Shown here: piece after piece, positions 3 through 63,785 of the stretch
Layout of the letters: each line of letters opens with the position of its first letter
Position numbering within the stretch: position 1 is the first letter of the stretch
Source of the DNA: Corynebacterium singulare
GTDB lineage: Bacteria; Actinomycetota; Actinomycetes; Mycobacteriales; Mycobacteriaceae
DNA: 64,000 nt
Reading direction: 5' to 3'
Assembly: GCF_000833575.1 (NCBI RefSeq)
Contig: NZ_CP010827.1
Span: 1,182,980-1,246,979 of the forward strand
Position numbers and translations under genes: made by a program
The notes under the pieces: generated by a model
Database searches by the model: none
What the model saw: only the letters and a program-made list of their open reading frames with translations
Told to the model about the DNA's origin: nothing

Positions 3-1958
3 GAGAAGCTGGTCAACTATGACTGGAAGCTCTCCGTCGGTGATACACAGCTCACTGATTCTGAGATGGAGGAGCTGGTCCGGTCTAAGTCGGGCCTCAT
101 TAAGCTGCGTGGTGAATGGGTCATGGCGGATACGCAGTCCCTCAACAAGATCCAGCAGTACATGCGTGAGCTTGCCGATACCGCCCGCAGGCGCGCGCTC
201 AAGGAATTGGAGAAGCTCGCCGCCACTGCAGAGATGGCGCGTCAGTTGGGTCAGCCCGGCTGGGAGGAGCTCGTGGCGGAGGTGGAGCGCCGCCGCAAGG
301 AGTTCAACGAAGGCGAAGAAGAAGCCGTGGTCTCCCTCGCGGATCTGCGCGAGATGGCGCTCAAGTCCATGGCGGAGGACCCGATCGCCTTCACCGGATC
401 TGAGTGGCACGCTTCGTTGCTCGGCGGGATGGAGACCACCGCGCCCGACCGCGTCGACATCCCTGATACGGTTCACGCGGAGCTGCGTGATTATCAGCGT
501 CGCGGCGTTGACTGGCTCTATTGGATGTCGCAGAACAATATTGGGGCAGTGCTTGCCGACGACATGGGTTTGGGCAAAACCCTTCAACTACTGTCGCTGC
601 TTGCCGTCGAAAAGGCGGCGTCTGACGACGCCGCGCAGGACAAGGACGCCGCGGGGGATACCAACTCTGCATGGAACCCCACCCTGGTCGTTGCACCCAC
701 CTCCGTCGTGGGCAACTGGGCCCGCGAAGCCGCACGCTTCGTGCCGGACTTCACCGTCCTGGTTCAGCACGGCACGGGACGGCTCAAGGGCGAGGAGCTT
801 GTCGCGGCCGCCCAAGCCTCCGACGTTGTCATCACGTCCTATGGCACCGTGGCCCGAGACTTCCTGACCTTGAGCAAGGTGGACTGGGATCGCGTGGTCC
901 TCGATGAAGCTCAAGCCATTAAGAACGCCGCGACCCGTTCGTCCAAAGCTGTGCGCGCCATCCCGTCGCGTCACCGCGTGGCGTTGACCGGTACGCCCAT
1001 TGAGAACCGGCTGTCGGAAATGCGCTCCATTCTGGATTATTGCAACCCAGGAATTCTGGGCTCGGCATCGTTCTTTCGCAACCACTTTGCCAAGTCCATC
1101 GAACGCGAAGGCAGCGATGTCATGGCAGAGCGTTTGCGCCTGCTCACCGCGCCTTTCATTCTCCGCCGCCTCAAGACAGACCCGAATATCATCGATGACC
1201 TGCCGGAGAAGTCCGAGCAAATCATCACCGTGCGAATGACCGATGAACAGGCGGCGCTGTACAAGGCCTTGGTCAATGACGTGGACGAAGCGCTGAAAAA
1301 CAAGGAGGGCATGTCGCGCCGCGGCCTTGTGCTCGCCTCACTAACCCGCATTAAGCAGATCTGCAACCACCCGGCACACTTCCTTGGTGATGGCAGTCCC
1401 GTCACCATCAAAGGCAGGCACCGCTCCGGCAAGGTAGAAGAGCTTATGCGCATCGTCGACCAGGCCATCGAGTCTCGCGAGCGCGTGCTCATTTTTACCC
1501 AGTACAAGGCCTTCGGTGACATCCTCCAGCCCTATCTCTCCGACCAGTTGGGCTGCGAGATTCCTTTCCTCCACGGCGGAGTGAGCAAGAATCGCCGCGA
1601 CACGATGGTGGAGGAGTTCCAGGCCGCGGATGGCGCCCCGGCCATGCTGCTCTCCCTTAAGGCGGGCGGTACGGGCCTGAACTTGACGGCGGCGTCGATT
1701 GTCGTGCACATGGACCGCTGGTGGAACCCGGCTGTGGAGAATCAGGCCACCGACCGCGCCTTCCGCATCGGACAGGAACGCAACGTGCAGGTCTACAAGA
1801 TGATTACCGCTGGCACGCTCGAGGAATCCATCCAGGACATCCTTGATGGCAAGATGCAGCTCGCGGGCGCCGTCGTGGGCGAGGGCGAAGGATGGCTCAC
1901 CGAGCTCACCCCAGAACAACTGGCGGAGCTTATGAGCTACAAGGGAGAGGAGAATTAA
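3..1958 (+). CDS. SNF2-family DEAD/DEAH-box helicase (5' end outside window)
   Basis: Superfamily 2 ATPase of the SNF2/RapA type, expected to translocate on duplex DNA and remodel protein-DNA complexes. The frame is open from the first bases of the window, so the N-terminus is missing; 651 residues are visible. In order it shows the Walker A motif DMGLGKT (near 561-581), the Walker B box DEAQ (near 904), the motif III element TGTPIENR, and the C-terminal helicase lobe with GGTGLNLT and the motif VI-like block ending in DRAFRIGQ. It is followed directly by a SWIM zinc-finger gene (stop TAA, then ATG with no gap), a pairing often seen with bacterial SNF2 proteins and suggesting a joint role in DNA processing. 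The family is certain; the biological substrate is unknown. Confidence 0.93.
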   Translation, partial: EKLVNYDWKLSVGDTQLTDSEMEELVRSKSGLIKLRGEWVMADTQSLNKIQQYMRELADTARRRALKELEKLAATAEMARQLGQPGWEELVAEVERRRKEFNEGEEEAVVSLADLREMALKSMAEDPIAFTGSEWHASLLGGMETTAPDRVDIPDTVHAELRDYQRRGVDWLYWMSQNNIGAVLADDMGLGKTLQLLSLLAVEKAASDDAAQDKDAAGDTNSAWNPTLVVAPTSVVGNWAREAARFVPDFTVLVQHGTGRLKGEELVAAAQASDVVITSYGTVARDFLTLSKVDWDRVVLDEAQAIKNAATRSSKAVRAIPSRHRVALTGTPIENRLSEMRSILDYCNPGILGSASFFRNHFAKSIEREGSDVMAERLRLLTAPFILRRLKTDPNIIDDLPEKSEQIITVRMTDEQAALYKALVNDVDEALKNKEGMSRRGLVLASLTRIKQICNHPAHFLGDGSPVTIKGRHRSGKVEELMRIVDQAIESRERVLIFTQYKAFGDILQPYLSDQLGCEIPFLHGGVSKNRRDTMVEEFQAADGAPAMLLSLKAGGTGLNLTAASIVVHMDRWWNPAVENQATDRAFRIGQERNVQVYKMITAGTLEESIQDILDGKMQLAGAVVGEGEGWLTELTPEQLAELMSYKGEEN

Positions 1959-2783
1959 ATGGCGCCAGCACGTCCCAAAGACGACAACGTCATCTACGCC
2001 AACTTCGGCACCCGCAAACGCGTGAGCACGCCGGAGGAGGTTCACCGCGTCGACCGCGTGCGCACTATGCAACCGGCGGCCACGCGCGTGATCAACTTTG
2101 TCAATGAGCAGACGGATTCCGGGCGCATCAGCCGCGGCCGCCAGTACGCAGCCGAAGGTCACGTTGTGGGCCTTGACGTGCGCAATGGTGCGGTGCACGG
2201 CAAGGTTGCCGGCTCGCAGAACGAGCCTTTTGCGGTGCTCATTCAGGTGCCCTACCGCAACAATGAGGACATCGCGCGGCTGTCGGAGATGTTTGCGCGC
2301 ACCCCCAACTCCGTGGCGAAGGCCAGGGAGGGCATGCTTGCCGACGACGCCCTCGACATCCTCTTCGCCGAATTCGCCGACGACCTGCGCTTCTCCTGCA
2401 CCTGTCCGGACTCGGCGTACGTCTGTAAGCATGTCGTGGCGGTGGCTGACCGCCTAGCCGCCCGTATGGACGCAGATCCGTCTGTCATTTTTGCACTGCG
2501 CGGTCTGGACTTCGCCCGCCTCGAGCAGTCCGTGATGGAACAGGCCAAGTCAGCTTCGGAGGATTCCTACAGCGGAGCAGACTTAGATCCAGAGGAGCGT
2601 AATGCGTTGTTTTGGGCGGGGCGAGAGCTGCCTTTGCTTCCCGAACCTAAGTCCGCACCGGCGGTGGATGATTCCGACCCTGACCTGCTGCGCAAGGCCA
2701 TGCGCTCGGTGAGCCATACGAACATAGATGTGCTTCGCGCGGTCTCCGATGTCGACGACCTTTACTACTATCTGACGCACTAA
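1959..2783 (+). CDS. SWIM zinc-finger family protein
   Basis: A 274-residue protein with a SWIM-type zinc motif (CxCx6CxH: Cys147, Cys149, Cys156, His158) in the middle. SWIM fingers bind DNA or protein and often accompany SNF2 helicases. The N-terminal third has no recognisable domain; the region after residue 200 is acidic. The ATG directly follows the stop of the helicase gene, which implies one transcript and probably one complex. I infer an accessory DNA-binding partner of the helicase; no catalytic motif is visible. Confidence 0.88.
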   Translation: MAPARPKDDNVIYANFGTRKRVSTPEEVHRVDRVRTMQPAATRVINFVNEQTDSGRISRGRQYAAEGHVVGLDVRNGAVHGKVAGSQNEPFAVLIQVPYRNNEDIARLSEMFARTPNSVAKAREGMLADDALDILFAEFADDLRFSCTCPDSAYVCKHVVAVADRLAARMDADPSVIFALRGLDFARLEQSVMEQAKSASEDSYSGADLDPEERNALFWAGRELPLLPEPKSAPAVDDSDPDLLRKAMRSVSHTNIDVLRAVSDVDDLYYYLTH

Positions 2784-56808: not shown

Positions 56809-57207
56809 ATGACCTCCGTACTTTTTCTCTGCAACACAAACCGCGGCAAGTCCCAGATGGCGGCCGCTCTAGCCAAGAAGCATGCTCCTGACTGGAATAT
56901 CTATTCCGCTGGCGTAAAGACCACTGAGCAGCATCGTGAGCAAGGCGTGAACGCCGAAGCACAGGCCTCGTTAGCCAAGGTGGGTGCCGATATGTCGGGA
57001 ACCCCGACGCTCATCGATTCATCCTTGGCAGCCTCCGTCGACCATGTCGTCGTCGTTGGTGATGCACACTACGACGGTGAGGCCGAGCGCTGGGAGATCG
57101 AGGATCCCTCGCTGCGCGGCATGGAGGGCGAGGAACGCATGGACGCGTTGCGCGATGATATTGATTCGCGCGTTCGTGACTTCATTAGCGCTCACGCGCA
57201 AGATTAA
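56809..57207 (+). CDS. Arsenate reductase/low-molecular-weight phosphatase family (ArsC1/2-like)
   Basis: A 132-residue protein of the LMW phosphatase fold. The active loop is FLCNTNRGKSQMA with Cys8 and Lys14, i.e. C-x5-K rather than the C-x5-R of classical phosphatases; the same pattern occurs in the mycothiol-dependent arsenate reductases ArsC1/ArsC2 of C. glutamicum. Arsenate reduction with mycothiol is therefore likely. No ars operon is nearby. It converges on the glgB fragment, with a large hairpin between them. Confidence 0.82.
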   Translation: MTSVLFLCNTNRGKSQMAAALAKKHAPDWNIYSAGVKTTEQHREQGVNAEAQASLAKVGADMSGTPTLIDSSLAASVDHVVVVGDAHYDGEAERWEIEDPSLRGMEGEERMDALRDDIDSRVRDFISAHAQD

Positions 57208-57211
57208 AAAG

Positions 57212-57286
57212 ACAACTGCCCGAACTGACAAAGATAGGCGCTGGGATCGAATCCCAGAGGATACTTTTGTCAGTTCGGGCAGTTGT
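57212..57286 (-). terminator. Large double hairpin terminator between convergent genes
   Basis: A perfect 21-bp inverted repeat (57212-57232 and 57266-57286) with an inner hairpin CTGGGAT/ATCCCAG (57241-57257). On the minus strand the stem is followed by CTTTTT, so it ends the glgB-side transcripts; on the plus strand the tail GTGTTTC is weaker, so it may be bidirectional. Confidence 0.88.
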
Positions 57287-57309
57287 GTTTCGACAGTCTA
57301 GCTTCAGGC

Positions 57310-57750
57310 CTAGCCGCGGAAGGCGTACCACTGCACCGAGTTGGCCGGCAGGTGCAGGTGAAGGTGGTTGTTTTCCGAGCGCACGTGGTGCGGCAGGTCG
57401 TTGCCGGCGCCTTGGTAGACGGCGTCGTCCGTGTTGAGGACGAGTTCCCACTCGCCGTCGCGCGGTACCCACAGGTCGTAGTTCGGGACGGAGCTGCCGG
57501 AGAAGTTGCACACCGCGAGAAGCGCAGAGCCGTCCTTGCCGTAGCGGACATAGCCCAGCATGTTGTTATTCGCGTCATCGGCCTTGACCCACTGGAAGCC
57601 GTCCTGGGTAAAGTCCTGTGACCACAGTGCTGGGTGCTGCTTGTACACCACGTTGAGGTCACGCACGAGGCGCTTGATGCCGTGGTGCCATTCATTGCCC
57701 CAGCCCTCCAAGTTGGACCAGTCCGCGAAGGGGCCTGCCCAAAAGTGTGA
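57310..57750 (-). pseudogene. Duplicated 3' end of glgB (fragment)
   Basis: A second, diverged copy of the last about 134 codons of glgB. It runs from [12 protein letters not shown] to the stop at 57310; the protein differs from the full copy only at scattered places (e.g. DFTQDGF for DYTQDGF and HVRSENNH for RVHSEGNN). Upstream the frame continues only 13 codons with sequence that does not match the glgB gene (SHFWAGPFADWS) to a stop. The homology between the two copies ends exactly at the stop codon. No start signal is present, so it is not expected to be translated. Confidence 0.93.
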
Positions 57751-57788
57751 TTATGGGTCCAAGAAGCGGTGATGCGCCCAATCGAACG

Positions 57789-58472
57789 CTAAGTCAGCGG
57801 CTGCTGGTCTCCGAAACTCCAGTGATAGTCAAATGTTTTGAGCTCTGGCTGGCGCCAGTCATTTCGCTCCTCCAGATGAACCATTGTCCACACGTCATCA
57901 ACGTCCGATCCGATATGACGGGCAAAGAGAACGGCCATCGAGATTTCCGTGTCGATTACGACTTCTTTCCACATCTGGTGTCTTTTCATCTCATCGTCGG
58001 AGTAGCTCACCACGCGGATGTAATGCTCAAACCCTGCTTTGGATGCCCGCGTAATAGACCGCGGATAGTGTAACCACGGTGGATTTTTAAACGTGTTACC
58101 CCAAAATTCCGGATACCGATTGTAGTAGAGAAATACGCTTGGGTTTCCAGCGCCAGAAGGTGGAGCACCTAGGTGGATTAACTGATTATTACAAGCATAT
58201 GGGCCGTCGTGACTGATCTCCACGCCGTTTATGAAGGTAATTAGTTCCGATTGAGCAGGATAAGCATCAACGTGATAGGTCGTGTAGTCAGTGAACGGTC
58301 CGTCTTCATCAGCAGTACCGTCGGGATAATAGATGCAATCGTACGAGACGTTTCTTGTGAGGTTATGTGCCATGAGCTGCTTCAGCACACCAGAGGAACA
58401 CAAATCTACTATTTCTTCGCATTCAATCACTCCTTGGTTTTCGCAAAAATCATCCCACAGAAAGCTGTGCAT
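57789..58472 (-). CDS. Unrecognised 227-residue protein in the glgB-flanked cassette
   Basis: I do not recognise this family. The protein is soluble, without a signal peptide or membrane helix, acidic, and rich in aromatic residues and His; Cys occurs at FCENQ, VIECEE, DLCSS, SYDCIY and YACNN. GGGGAGGAG stands 5 nt before ATG 58472, a strong ribosome binding site, so it is a genuine gene. It has lower GC than glgB on both sides. It follows the 51-codon frame after 15 nt and both lie between two copies of the glgB 3' end, so the two were probably acquired together. An immunity-type or defence role is possible but not shown. Confidence 0.75.
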   Translation of the reverse strand: MHSFLWDDFCENQGVIECEEIVDLCSSGVLKQLMAHNLTRNVSYDCIYYPDGTADEDGPFTDYTTYHVDAYPAQSELITFINGVEISHDGPYACNNQLIHLGAPPSGAGNPSVFLYYNRYPEFWGNTFKNPPWLHYPRSITRASKAGFEHYIRVVSYSDDEMKRHQMWKEVVIDTEISMAVLFARHIGSDVDDVWTMVHLEERNDWRQPELKTFDYHWSFGDQQPLT

Positions 58473-58487
58473 ATTTGACTCCTCCCC

Positions 58488-58643
58488 TTAACGGGGTTTA
58501 CGTATGATCATCAATAGGATTGGTAAACCTACACAAATCAGCATGATGGGAATACTCGGGACAATCGTAACGCCCGATAGCGAACCTGTACCCACCAAAG
58601 CTCTGGTTGTAGCCTCATTCGGGAACTTTAAGCGAGATACCAT
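58488..58643 (-). CDS. Small ORF with one membrane helix in the glgB-flanked cassette
   Basis: A 51-codon frame: a basic N-terminal half (MVSRLKFPNEATTRA...) and a hydrophobic helix (about residues 26-46, IVPSIPIMLICVGLPILLMI) ending in IIRKPR. It stops 15 nt before the 227-residue gene, so it looks like the first gene of a two-gene unit. However, the frame continues upstream through the TAG at 58644-58646 with protein-like sequence (KVTYDIPKEPGTFLPK), so it may instead be the tail of a longer membrane protein cut at the glgB boundary. No strong ribosome binding site precedes the ATG. Confidence 0.45.
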   Translation of the reverse strand: MVSRLKFPNEATTRALVGTGSLSGVTIVPSIPIMLICVGLPILLMIIRKPR

Positions 58644-58703
58644 CTACTTCGGTAAAAAGGTGCCCGGCTCTTTAGGAATATCGTAGGTAACTTTATCTGC
58701 GTT

Positions 58704-60824
58704 TTAGCCGCGGAATGCGTACCACTGCACCGAATTAGCCGGCAGGTGCAGGTGAAGGTTGTTGCCTTCCGAGTGGACGCGGTGGGGCAGGTCGTTGCCT
58801 GCTCCTTGATAGACAGCATCGTCCGTGTTGAGGACGAGTTCCCACTCGCCGTCACGCGGTACCCACAAGTCGTAGTTCGGGACGGAGCTGCCAGAGAAGT
58901 TGCACACCGCGAGCAGAGCCGAGCCGTCCTTGCCGTAGCGGACATAGCCCAGCATGTTGTTGTTGGCGTCGTCAGCCTTAACCCACTGGAAGCCGTCCTG
59001 GGTGTAATCCTGCGACCACAGAGCCGGGTGCTGCTTGTACACCACGTTGAGGTCACGCACGAGGCGCTTGATGCCGTGGTGCCATTCATTGCCCCAGCCT
59101 TCAAGGTTGGCCCAGTCCACGGAGTTTCCCTCAGACCACTCGGTGGTCTGGCCGAACTCTTGGCCCATGAACATCAGCTGCTTGCCGGGGTGGGAGAACA
59201 TGTAGCCGTAGAGGGCGCGGAGGCCGGCGGCCTTATTCCAGTCGTCGCCAGGCATGCGCTCCCACAGCGAGCCCTTGCCATGGACAACCTCATCGTGGCT
59301 AAACGGCAGAACGTAGCGCTCCGAGTAGGCGTAAATCATGGAGAAGGTCAGCTCGCCGTGGTGGTAGCTGCGGTGGATGGGCTCGTGCTTGAAGTATTCG
59401 AGCGTGTCATTCATCCAGCCCATGTTCCACTTCAGGTTGAAGCCCAAGCCGCCCTCGTGCGTCGGGGCAGTCACACCCGGCCAGGAGGTGGATTCCTCCG
59501 CAATGGTGAGAACACCCGGGTGGGTGCGGTTCAGCGTGGCGTTGGTCTCCTGGAGGAATTGGACTGCCTCAAGGTTTTCGCGGCCGCCGTACTGGTTGGG
59601 CAGCCATTCATCGCGGGAATAGTCCAAGTAGAGCATGGAGGCTACGGCATCAACGCGCAGGCCGTCGACGTGGAATTCCTCAGCCCAGTACAGAGCATTA
59701 GCGACGAGGAAGTTGCGGACTTCGTTGCGGCCGAAGTCGAAGACGTAGGTGCCCCAGTCTGCCTGCTCGCCGCGGCGCGGGTCCGGGTGCTCGTAGAGGG
59801 CCTGGCCGTCGAAGCGGCCGAGGGCCCACTCATCCTTGGGGAAGTGGGCAGGGACCCAGTCGATGAACACACCGATGCCGGCCTTGTGGAGGTCATTAAT
59901 GAGCGCGCGCAGCTCATCCGGGGTACCCCAGCGAGCAGAAGGCGCGTAGTAGCCGGAGACCTGGTAGCCCCACGAGCCGCCGAAGGGGTGTTCAGCCACG
60001 GGCAGCATCTCCACGTGGGTAAACCCATGTTCGAGCAGGTAGGGGATGAGTTCTTCGCGCAGGCTGTTGTAGTTGGCGCCCACCTTCCAGGAGCCCACGT
60101 GCAGCTCATAGATGCTTATCGGCACATCGAGGTCGTCGTTGCGCTGGGTCATCCACTCGTCATCGGACCATGCAAACTCGGACTTCGTGACGACGGAGGC
60201 AGTCTCCGGCGGAGCGATGGTGCGCTTGGCCAAGGGATCAGCCTTGTCGACGCGCGGGGCGTTCTTTCCGTGGACGGCGAACTTGTAGCGCTCGCCCTCA
60301 CCGACGCCGGGGATGAAAAGTTCCCAGATACCGGTGGAACCCAGGCAGCGCATGGGGTACTGGGTTGGGTTCCAACCGCAGAAGTCACCAACCACGGCAA
60401 CACCTTCTGCATTTGGGGCCCACACGGCGAAGGCGGTGCCGGTGACCTCACCCAGGTCGGTGGTGTAGGTCTTGAGGTTTGCGCCGAGTACGTCCCAGAG
60501 GCGCTCATGGCGACCCTCACCGATGAGGTGCTGGTCCAGGGTGCCCAAGGTAGGCAGGAAGTGGTAGCCATCGGCGACTTCGATTGAAGGCTGGTCTGGG
60601 TAGGTGATCCGCAGGCGGTAATCAGATTCCTCCGCCAGCGGAGCCTCCCAGATATCGTCACCCACAGGAGCCATGGTGACGATCTCCGCCTCGGTGACGA
60701 GCTCGACGGCTTCGGCGCCGGGGCGGCGAGTGCGGACGGTTCCTTGGTGCCATCCATAGAAATCATGCGGCGCATGGTGGCGGCAATTGTTCAGGCGTTC
60801 AAGATCAGAGGCCGGGATGTTCAT
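58704..60824 (-). CDS. glgB: 1,4-alpha-glucan branching enzyme
   Basis: A 706-residue GH13 enzyme that makes alpha-1,6 branches in glycogen. An N-terminal carbohydrate-binding region is followed by the barrel with the nucleophile Asp in [15 protein letters not shown], the acid Glu in TIAEESTSW and [10 protein letters not shown], and a C-terminal all-beta domain. The ATG at 60824 is chosen over TTG 60833. Its last about 134 codons are duplicated at 57310-57711. glgE lies directly upstream, reading the same way, as in C. glutamicum. Confidence 0.96.
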
Positions 60825-60872
60825 AATGACCAAATTACCTAACTCTGACCGTCCGCGCGGGCCAAAAGGAAA

Positions 60873-62879
60873 CTAGGCGCGGTAGTCCTCGACACGGCGC
60901 CACGCCAGCTGCTCCTGCAGGTCATGGTCGGCAGGGGGCAAGATGAAGATGTGGGCGACGTCGCGAAGCGGCTCTAGGCGCACAAAGTTACGGTCAGACC
61001 ACTCATATGCCGAGCCACTGATGGCGTCTTGGACGGTGAAGTGGTCGCCCGGTTGGCGGCCCACGGCCTTAAGGTCTAGGTAGACCGTTGCTTCCTGGGC
61101 GTTGCGCGGATCAAGGTTGACCACCACGAGCACGACGTTGCCAGTCGCCGCATCTGCCTTGGAGTAGGCGATGATGGCGTCATTGTCGGTGTTGTGGAAG
61201 CGCAGGGTACGCAGCTGCTGGAGGGCCGGGTTTTCGCGGCGAATGACGTTGAGAAGGCGGATGTAGGATTCCAAGGAGTCGCCGGACTTCAGCGCGGCCT
61301 GGAAGTCACGCGGGCGCAGCTCATACTTCTCCGAGTTGAGGTACTCCTCGCTGCCCGGGGCCACTGCCTGGTGCTCGTAGAGCTCGAAGCCGGAGTAGAC
61401 GCCCCACAGCGGGGAGAGCGTGGCGGCCAGGGTCGCGCGGATGGCAAACATGGCGCGCCCGCCGGTCTGCAGTGACTCGTGGAGGATGTCCGGAGTGTTG
61501 ACAAAGAGGTTGGGGCGGCAGACATCGGCCTGCTCCACATGCATTTCGGCGAACGTGGTCAGGTCATACTTGGACGTCTGCCACGTGAAGTAGGTGTAGG
61601 ACTGGGTAAAGCCAGCCTTGGCCAGGCCGAACAGGCGCGGGGCGCGGGTAAAGGCCTCGGACAGGAAGATGACCTCCGGGTGGGTCACGTGCACCTTGGA
61701 AATCAGCCAATTCCAGAAGTTCGCCGGCTTGGTGTGCGGGTTATCCACGCGGAAGGTGGTAACACCGGCCTCTACCCAAATCATGACGATGCGGTAGATT
61801 TCCGCGTAAATACCGTCCGGGTCATTATCGAAGTTGAGGGGGTAGATGTCCTGGTACTTCTTTGGTGGGTTCTCGGCGTAGGCAATGGTGCCGTCAGCGA
61901 GCACGGTGAAAAACTCCGGGTTGCTCTCCGCCCACGGGTGGTCGGGGGAAGCCTGCAGCGCTAGGTCCAGCGCCACCTCGAGGCCCAGTTCCTCGGCCTT
62001 GGTCACCAGCTTCTTGAAGTCCTCCATCGTGCCCAGCTCTGGGTGAGTGGTGGAGTGGTCCTGGATGGCCCACGGGGAGCCGACATCGCCCGGCTCTGCT
62101 ACCACGGAGTTGTTCTTGCCTTTGCGGTGCACCTCACCGATGGGGTGGATAGGTGGGAAGTACACGGTGTCGAAACCCATCCCGGCGACGCGCTCAAGGG
62201 CCTGCGCTGTGGTGTCGAACGTGCCGTGTACGGGATTGCCGTCTGCGTCCCAGCCACCGGTGGAACGCGGGAACAGCTCATACCAGGAATTGAAGAGGGC
62301 ATCTCGGCGTTCGACCAGTACCTCGTGAATCTCACCTTCCACCAGCAGGTGGCGTAGAGGATGGTGGTGCAGAATCTCGGCCACCTCGGGGGACAGTGCG
62401 GTGCGCACGCGCTTGTCGACGTCCCCCTTCTCATCCCGCAACTCCTTCGACGCGGCGAAGAGCAGGTCTGCCTTCTCGCTCGGGCACTGAATTGCGGCCT
62501 CCTCAAAGAGTTCCGCGCCGTGGAGGAGATCGTTGCTGAGCTCTTGGGCAGATTGGCCTGCCTCCATCTTCTTGGTGACGGCGTTGCGCCACGTGGCCAT
62601 GGGATCCGACCAGGCATCGATGCGGAAGAACCAGCGGCCGGGGGTAGCTGGGGTGAAAACTCCGTGGACGCGGTCTTGGTCATTCGGGTCCACCGTCATG
62701 GTGGAGGCAGATGTAGCGGGGGAGTCGTTGTTCCACACCGACAGGGTTGCGGCGACGGCGTCGTGGCCCTCGCGCCACACCAGTGCGGTGACAGGAACAA
62801 CCTCACCTACCACGGCTTTCGAGGCTACTGCGCCGGAGAGAGAAGGGCGGACATCGTCGATACCAAGGCGTTGAGTCAT
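60873..62879 (-). CDS. glgE: Alpha-1,4-glucan:maltose-1-phosphate maltosyltransferase
   Basis: A 668-residue GH13 enzyme that extends alpha-glucan with maltose-1-phosphate, part of the trehalose-to-glucan route. The nucleophile is in TTFRVDNPHTKP and the acid in IFLSEAFTR. ATG 62879 (MTQRLGIDDVRP) matches the family start. No Shine-Dalgarno sequence precedes it; a TATTCT box 6 nt upstream (62886-62891 on the plus axis) would make the transcript begin at the ATG, i.e. leaderless. Divergent from the ABC ATPase gene over about 57 bp. Confidence 0.95.
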   Translation of the reverse strand: MTQRLGIDDVRPSLSGAVASKAVVGEVVPVTALVWREGHDAVAATLSVWNNDSPATSASTMTVDPNDQDRVHGVFTPATPGRWFFRIDAWSDPMATWRNAVTKKMEAGQSAQELSNDLLHGAELFEEAAIQCPSEKADLLFAASKELRDEKGDVDKRVRTALSPEVAEILHHHPLRHLLVEGEIHEVLVERRDALFNSWYELFPRSTGGWDADGNPVHGTFDTTAQALERVAGMGFDTVYFPPIHPIGEVHRKGKNNSVVAEPGDVGSPWAIQDHSTTHPELGTMEDFKKLVTKAEELGLEVALDLALQASPDHPWAESNPEFFTVLADGTIAYAENPPKKYQDIYPLNFDNDPDGIYAEIYRIVMIWVEAGVTTFRVDNPHTKPANFWNWLISKVHVTHPEVIFLSEAFTRAPRLFGLAKAGFTQSYTYFTWQTSKYDLTTFAEMHVEQADVCRPNLFVNTPDILHESLQTGGRAMFAIRATLAATLSPLWGVYSGFELYEHQAVAPGSEEYLNSEKYELRPRDFQAALKSGDSLESYIRLLNVIRRENPALQQLRTLRFHNTDNDAIIAYSKADAATGNVVLVVVNLDPRNAQEATVYLDLKAVGRQPGDHFTVQDAISGSAYEWSDRNFVRLEPLRDVAHIFILPPADHDLQEQLAWRRVEDYRA

Positions 62880-62936
62880 GCCCATAGAATAATGCAGCTG
62901 TGTCAGTTTCACCGGGGAAGGAAAATATCGGCCACA

Positions 62937-63785
62937 ATGGTTCCTGTGAACACACCTGAGCAAACTGGCGACATGAACCTTGAGAACCAGCCCACCGATG
63001 AGGATTGGCTGATTGACTTTCGCGGCGTCGAGCTGCGCCGAGGCGGAAATACCCTGGTCGGCCCCGTGGACTGGCAAGTCGAGCTCGACGAACGCTGGGT
63101 CATTATCGGGCCCAACGGCGCAGGCAAGACCTCGCTCGTGCGCATGGCCTCGGCCGAGGAATTCCCCTCTGCCGGCGTGGCCTACCTCATGGGCGAGCGC
63201 CTGGGCAAGACTGATATGCGCGATCTTCGCGCGGCCATCGGTATTTCTTCCGCCGCCGTGCAACACCGCATCCCGGACGGCGAGCGCGTCGATGACCTTG
63301 TGATCTCTGCCGGATATGCCGTGCTGGGCCGATGGCGCGAGGACTACCAGGATATGGACTTCTCCCGCGCCGATGACATCCTGCACCAGGTCGGCGCCTA
63401 CCACCTAGCCAAGCGCACGTGGGGCACGCTGTCCGAGGGTGAGAAGAAGCGCGTCATCCTTGCCCGCGCGCTCATGGCCAACCCAGAGTTGCTCATCCTC
63501 GACGAGCCCTCCGCCGGCATGGACCTCGGCGGCCGCGAGGATCTCGTGGGGTACCTGGGTGATTTAGCCATGGACCCGGATGCCCCTGCCATCGTCATGA
63601 TTACCCACCACGTGGAGGAAATCCCTTACGGATTTACCCATGCGATGATCCTTGATGAGGGTAAAGTCGTGGCCAAAGGACTCATTAACACGGTCCTCAC
63701 GTCGAAGAACCTGTCCACAGCGTTCCACCAGCCCATTCAGGTGGACCGCATTGGGGATCGATACTTCGCCCGCCGCATTCGTTAG
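62937..63785 (+). CDS. ABC transporter ATP-binding protein
   Basis: A 282-residue ATPase with Walker A GPNGAGKTS, signature LSEGEKKR (in place of LSGGQ), Walker B LLILDEPSAGMD and the switch His in MITHHVEE. No permease is adjacent. It is divergent to glgE in a conserved corynebacterial arrangement. The start at 62937 is preceded by AAGGAAA at long spacing; an internal ATG at 62973 is an alternative. Substrate unknown. Confidence 0.88.
   Translation: MVPVNTPEQTGDMNLENQPTDEDWLIDFRGVELRRGGNTLVGPVDWQVELDERWVIIGPNGAGKTSLVRMASAEEFPSAGVAYLMGERLGKTDMRDLRAAIGISSAAVQHRIPDGERVDDLVISAGYAVLGRWREDYQDMDFSRADDILHQVGAYHLAKRTWGTLSEGEKKRVILARALMANPELLILDEPSAGMDLGGREDLVGYLGDLAMDPDAPAIVMITHHVEEIPYGFTHAMILDEGKVVAKGLINTVLTSKNLSTAFHQPIQVDRIGDRYFARRIR

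Follow-up and report, generated by a model that had tools for sequence, protein, structure and literature searches.

Immunity genes kept without a working effector are known from the type VI clusters of Vibrio cholerae; according to the available parts of the report (PMC5361080), the 3' end of the effector gene has been shifted back in one case. For the orphan arrays of this species, the same parts of PMC5361080 propose an origin akin to homology-facilitated illegitimate recombination and describe such events as rare; the process itself has been reported in E. coli, as stated in the accessible portion of PMC3240628. The LGFP repeat, found in the secreted proteins discussed below, is defined in the accessible portion of PMC2447325.

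The locus described here lies within a stretch of 64,000 nucleotides, hereafter the window (G000:C1:1182980-1246979), taken from a 2,830,519 bp genome, 100% complete and assembled in one contig. On the minus strand, a GlgE-like ORF (60873-63404, named by eye) is located close upstream of glgB (58704..60833, minus strand), a complete gene for the glycogen branching enzyme, coding for the GlgB_N, CBM_48, Alpha-amylase and Alpha-amylase_C domains. Further downstream, a terminator-like hairpin of glgB (57208..57290, minus strand; -51 kcal/mol, z -10.45) separates it from a convergent low-molecular-weight phosphatase gene (56809-57207, plus strand). Between glgB and the hairpin, an insert and a second glgB 3' end are found. 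Judging from sequence comparisons, the insert, located where the glg operon ends, is likely to be an orphan immunity gene accompanied by a scrap of the gene for its toxin.

The two glgB ends are both on the minus strand. T2, the last 429 bases or so of the complete gene (58704 to about 59132), is continuous with the glgB body, while T1 (57310..57738), the short, distal copy, is an open frame without a start, which abuts the hairpin. A sequence-only reading of this DNA had reported that about 134 terminal codons of glgB occur twice, diverged and with homology ending at the stop; this was confirmed, since the segments 57310-57711 and 58704-59105 (402 nt each, stop included) differ at 36 positions and similarity ends at their stop codons, TAG and TAA, respectively. 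On the other side homology extends to about 57730-57741 and 59124-59135, giving 420 nt, or about 140 codons, at 91% identity. Chance is excluded as the origin of this repeat. An assembly error is unlikely, because the genome is a single complete contig, the copies are 9% apart, and the same gene and the same remnant are found in database proteins from other contigs (P0001 and P0007, see below).

Within the 402-nt segment, the differences fall 4, 4 and 28 times on codon positions 1, 2 and 3, and correspond to 28 synonymous and 5 nonsynonymous codons, against about 22% synonymous changes expected for random point changes (dN 0.031, dS 0.394, by the NG86 method). The predominance of synonymous differences (dN 0.03, dS 0.39) suggests that the tails diverged mostly as working genes. 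An in-place tandem duplication, followed by drift of one copy, was considered and rejected, as 28 of the 36 differences are at third positions. One of the tails is thus, as far as the pattern of substitutions tells, an allele from a diverged lineage and not a drifted local duplicate. When the differences over 420 nt were polarised by using relatives, 7 synonymous and 5 nonsynonymous changes were assigned to T1, 7 and 3 to T2, and 17 were undecided; some relaxation of selection in T1 may possibly have occurred.

A tree of 12 rows pairs T1 and T2 as sisters (98/93), inside the clade of G195, G065 and G207, which points either to a closely related source or to the action of gene conversion. When compared with relatives, T2 behaves like the glgB body, and T1 shows much the same identity to each of the eight closest ones (86.6-89.0%); the tree and the identities to relatives do not discriminate the foreign from the native tail. 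These data would be best accounted for if a diverged allele had been imported, with a homologous junction at one end and an illegitimate one at the other.

The region between the two tails (57739-58703) has a GC content of 47.7%, compared to 60.6% for the whole window. Among 315 segments of 965 bp sampled every 200 bp, none is as low (minimum 48.0), and the lower GC pointed out earlier is therefore real. A spacer of about 50 bp (57739..57788, minus strand) separates T1 from the 227-codon gene; besides itself, a search of its own genome found a 33-base match (E 3.8e-4) inside an unrelated ORF and weaker ones elsewhere. ORFs between the tails were read by eye and none was integrase-like, as already stated in the sequence-only reading.

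In order to establish the state of the site elsewhere, glgB 3' ends were compared in the ten closest relatives, nine of which are informative (L043-L050 and L052), L051 being left out of the count as it ends at a contig edge. In all nine, glgB is followed by short non-coding DNA alone, with no cargo before the phosphatase gene, and the expectation of different cargo at this site was not borne out in these relatives. A relative of the window hairpin (inverted sequence) follows glgB in six of the nine (L043-L048). On a larger scale, a glgB-tail match was found in 205 of 242 Corynebacterium genomes, a set with one genome per species, and two tails only in the host genome. Recurrent integration at glgB, the test for an integrative element that restores its target, was not observed among these 242 genomes, and glgB was discarded as an insertion hot spot, given two tails in 1/242 genomes only. 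At seven other loci of the family described below (one cut by a contig end), no flanking gene has its end duplicated in the surroundings; the repeats found around such loci are two between neighbouring clpP-like genes (L012) and one of 48 nt (L097). The proposed cassette carrying the tail of its target gene is not supported by these counts, and the duplicated tail is better described as the scar of a gene capture than as a new kind of element.

The 227-codon gene, a putative orphan immunity gene, extends over 57789..58472 (minus strand) and is preceded by the Shine-Dalgarno-like sequence GGGGAGGAG (58479..58487, minus strand); both the gene and its strong ribosome binding site had been correctly noticed. 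No signal peptide is visible by eye in the protein, and a half-barrel fold is predicted for it, which may be LolA/RseB-like. Pfam gives no match above cut-off, NCBIfam and PADLOC give none at the limits applied, and no solved structure related to the family was found by sequence. A profile of the protein retrieved 11 proteins from a database of 5.8 billion, the only one with a named source being from Corynebacterium; P0001, from another contig, is the same gene (94%). No relative was found in the viral contigs, phages and plasmids searched, and an origin from a phage or plasmid was rejected on this basis. The family is present in 8 of the 242 Corynebacterium genomes; in 298 genomes sampled evenly across the order, it was found in G000 only.

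The rest of the insert is occupied by a broken remnant from the 3' end of a toxin-like gene with LGFP repeats (58498..58703, minus strand), identified by an own-genome search. It starts directly after the glgB stop and comprises about 65 codons and a stop, with a frame change and a further stop inside. When the 636-aa LGFP protein of G094 was used as query against G000, residues 578-636 matched the window at 58501-58677 (G000:C1:1241480-1241656) with E 3.3e-18, at 56% identity and with stops inside; the C-terminal domain alone found the same place with E 7.6e-19. Against P0013, the remnant is 68% identical over 57 residues (572-628), with 17 more residues in another frame, reaching 58703. The frame of 51 codons with a membrane helix, previously taken as a gene, does exist (58488..58643, minus strand), but according to these alignments it is a spurious, out-of-frame reading of pseudogene scrap and no gene; in place of a two-gene cassette, there is one gene next to a pseudogene scrap. 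In P0007 the same out-of-frame reading is fused to a relative of the 227-residue protein (90% identity over the matched 54%), indicating that other strains share the broken scrap.

The genomic context of the family points to the LGFP proteins as partners. The family gene directly follows an intact gene for a 636-aa LGFP protein in G094 (L010), two overlapping ORFs into which a similar LGFP gene is split in G097 (L009), and, for a distant relative, an LGFP gene truncated at the edge of its contig in G237 (L098). By sequence, these arrangements are consistent with the earlier suggestion of a unit of the toxin/immunity kind. Only a 3' remnant of the LGFP gene precedes the family gene in G042 (L012), G067 (L011) and in the window (G000), and no remnant is found before it in G022 (L008) and G210 (L097), where neighbours are trypsin-like and malic-enzyme-like, as judged by eye. 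A large ORF, type II Cas9-like by eye (L008 4102-7482, minus strand), lies about 2.4 kb from the family gene of G022.

For the orphan check, whole genomes were searched with the 256-aa C-terminal domain of the LGFP partner. The domain is full-length in G094, G097 and G237, and nearly full in G090, where the ORF downstream is unmatched by the 227-aa profile; remnants of 40-70 residues only were found in G042, G000 and G067. There was no match in G022 or G210, both drafts of 30-50 contigs from which a toxin gene could be missing. In all, five of the eight family genomes, the host included, have no full copy of the domain, and it is this count that suggests the orphan immunity reading. Searches of G000 itself found only LGFP parts and the remnant, and no intact cognate toxin-like gene. 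The family genes devoid of the full toxin domain look conserved, with dN 0.117 and dS 0.71 between G067 and G042, and dN 0.026 and dS 0.096 between G022 and G210, where both pairs of values may include time before toxin loss.

The LGFP protein used as query matches 239 of the 242 Corynebacterium genomes; many of these matches, judging from short LGFP-only hits, are probably general envelope proteins. Among the matches listed, many end near residue 380 of the 636-aa query, while the ORFs continue. A set of 30 loci returned by the search plus L099 was reduced to 27 by dropping L059, L066 and L078, where the rule adopted gave no downstream ORF (L059 was also short at its end), and L074, which is identical to L073; for L053, L063 and L099, the ends were assigned manually. 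The 27 loci fall into 8 C-terminal families, the conserved N-terminal part being combined with C-terminal domains that are unrelated between families. Of 49 pairs from the same family, 23 have related downstream ORFs, versus 0 of 302 pairs from different families. By family, related pairs are 11/21, 0/10 (phospholipase-like), 6/6, 3/6 and 3/6, the last being the partner family of the 227-residue protein. L054-L057, and likewise L067, L068, L069 and L079, have their own C-terminal families with related, tightly spaced downstream ORFs, and Pfam recognised only LGFP in L054 and L067.

Pfam searches on the C-terminal ends identified Peptidase_C92, Phospholip_A2_3 (just reaching the cut-off) and DUF6973, the first two suggesting enzymes. 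In the peptidase-like family, several downstream ORFs start with a signal- or lipoprotein-like sequence, as seen by eye; a 227-residue protein without a signal sequence would instead fit a toxin acting in the cytoplasm. The LGFP partner of this protein matches no known toxin family at cut-off, and the protein itself no known immunity family. The toxin-like C-terminal domain was modelled with a pLDDT of 73, and its best Foldseek hit has E 6.6e-3 at a TM of about 0.2. The host genome also contains a locus (L100, G000:C1:2553000-2557500, 741-2356, minus strand), where a 280-aa LGFP ORF overlaps a 258-aa ORF downstream of it, for which Pfam gives no match; the two may be another toxin/immunity-like pair. 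In PS1, a mycolyltransferase takes the place of the variable C-terminal domains. By sequence this protein is a relative of the LGFP part, with E-values of 8e-31 and 1.9e-29 (PDB 6swz / 6sx4).

These data may be combined as follows. An LGFP-repeat protein would bind the envelope of neighbouring corynebacteria and deliver its C-terminal domain as a toxin, which the 227-residue protein would neutralise in the cytoplasm; we infer both the toxicity of the domain and the immunity from sequence and gene order. A cell that keeps or gains the immunity gene alone would survive the attack of toxin producers. In the host genome, DNA would have entered by a recombination in which one end paired with glgB and the other was joined without homology, displacing one glgB 3' end (T1) downstream and leaving a complete glgB (T2). 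Homologous recombination at the glgB end, as proposed at the outset, would thus hold for one junction, but the swapping of cargo is not supported. Transcription of the glg operon would then read through into the 227-codon gene, whose own ribosome binding site would serve for translation. Such read-through is probable, since the terminator now lies behind the gene and the search of the insert gave no promoter-like site, although 0 found versus 1.4 expected in shuffles is weak evidence. The defence function suggested earlier might be retained in the sense of protection from the toxins of rival bacteria; a role against phages receives no support, no PADLOC match having been obtained. Two observations are against the immunity reading: downstream ORFs of the phospholipase-like family are unrelated (0/10), and the downstream ORF of G090 is unmatched.

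The insert could also be passenger DNA, that is, a toxin/immunity fragment of a relative which hitchhiked with a recombination at glgB and has no function, its 227-codon gene being not yet decayed. The toxin part already broken, an arrangement found in 1/242 genomes and the missing promoter-like site all agree with this, whereas the intact gene with its strong ribosome binding site does not; moreover, the same out-of-frame remnant before a related gene in P0007 implies some period of coexistence with the broken toxin, and toxin-less family members elsewhere have dN well under dS. We regard a passenger as unlikely. At least as unlikely is that the 227-residue protein is an LGFP accessory, for instance a regulator or a helper in folding or secretion, and that the C-terminal domain is no toxin: a helper is not expected to persist without its LGFP partner, yet it does so in 5/8 genomes, and downstream genes follow the C-terminal domain and not the common LGFP part.

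A duplicate tail stopping exactly at the stop codon and a complete glgB reading frame are also what a mobile cassette would leave, if it integrated at glgB and restored the gene with its own tail, as some integrative elements do. This is very improbable, considering that no integrase-like ORF lies between the tails, that the duplicate is confined to 1/242 genomes, that no target end is duplicated where the family gene occurs elsewhere, and that the searched viral contigs, phages and plasmids hold no relative.

If the orphan immunity reading is extended to the genus, an undescribed arms race among corynebacteria may be envisaged, where LGFP polymorphic toxins act at mycolic-acid envelopes, lone immunity genes are parked beside transcribed housekeeping genes, and the glgB tail is a scar; we give this wider picture an even chance. 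As part of the same picture, the parking sites would be glgB here, and places near clpP/tig-like and malic-enzyme-like genes elsewhere, with neighbouring transcription keeping the genes on. If true, Corynebacterium, a major commensal genus of skin and airways, would offer a testable system of protein toxin and immunity, as well as a clean natural example of an immunity gene captured alone, and LGFP toxin/immunity pairs could be listed by a simple rule: repeats that stop at about residue 380, then a variable end and a tight downstream ORF. An apparent small membrane gene is also corrected into a toxin scrap read in the wrong frame.

Among the open-access papers listed for LGFP together with toxin, immunity or Corynebacterium, evaluated by title and start of abstract, no treatment of LGFP-repeat toxins was found. 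Polymorphic toxin systems, as presented in the accessible text of PMC3482391, likewise combine a common trafficking part, a variable C-terminal toxin domain and an immunity gene; in that text, LGFP occurs 0 times. Orphan immunity genes are also found in rAID, where, according to the accessible account, they were shown to protect against cognate effectors; rAID are recombinase-associated arrays, while a single gene, with no recombinase seen, is present here. The insertion fits the V. cholerae model, as given in the available parts of PMC5361080, in which homology anchors one end, the other is joined without homology and the old 3' end is displaced. There, however, the displaced tail belongs to an effector of the type VI system, whereas at this locus it belongs to the housekeeping gene glgB, in a Gram-positive host with a mycolic-acid envelope and LGFP-repeat secreted proteins. 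What remains novel is the putative LGFP toxin/immunity class, together with a probable immunity gene that stands alone downstream of a housekeeping gene.
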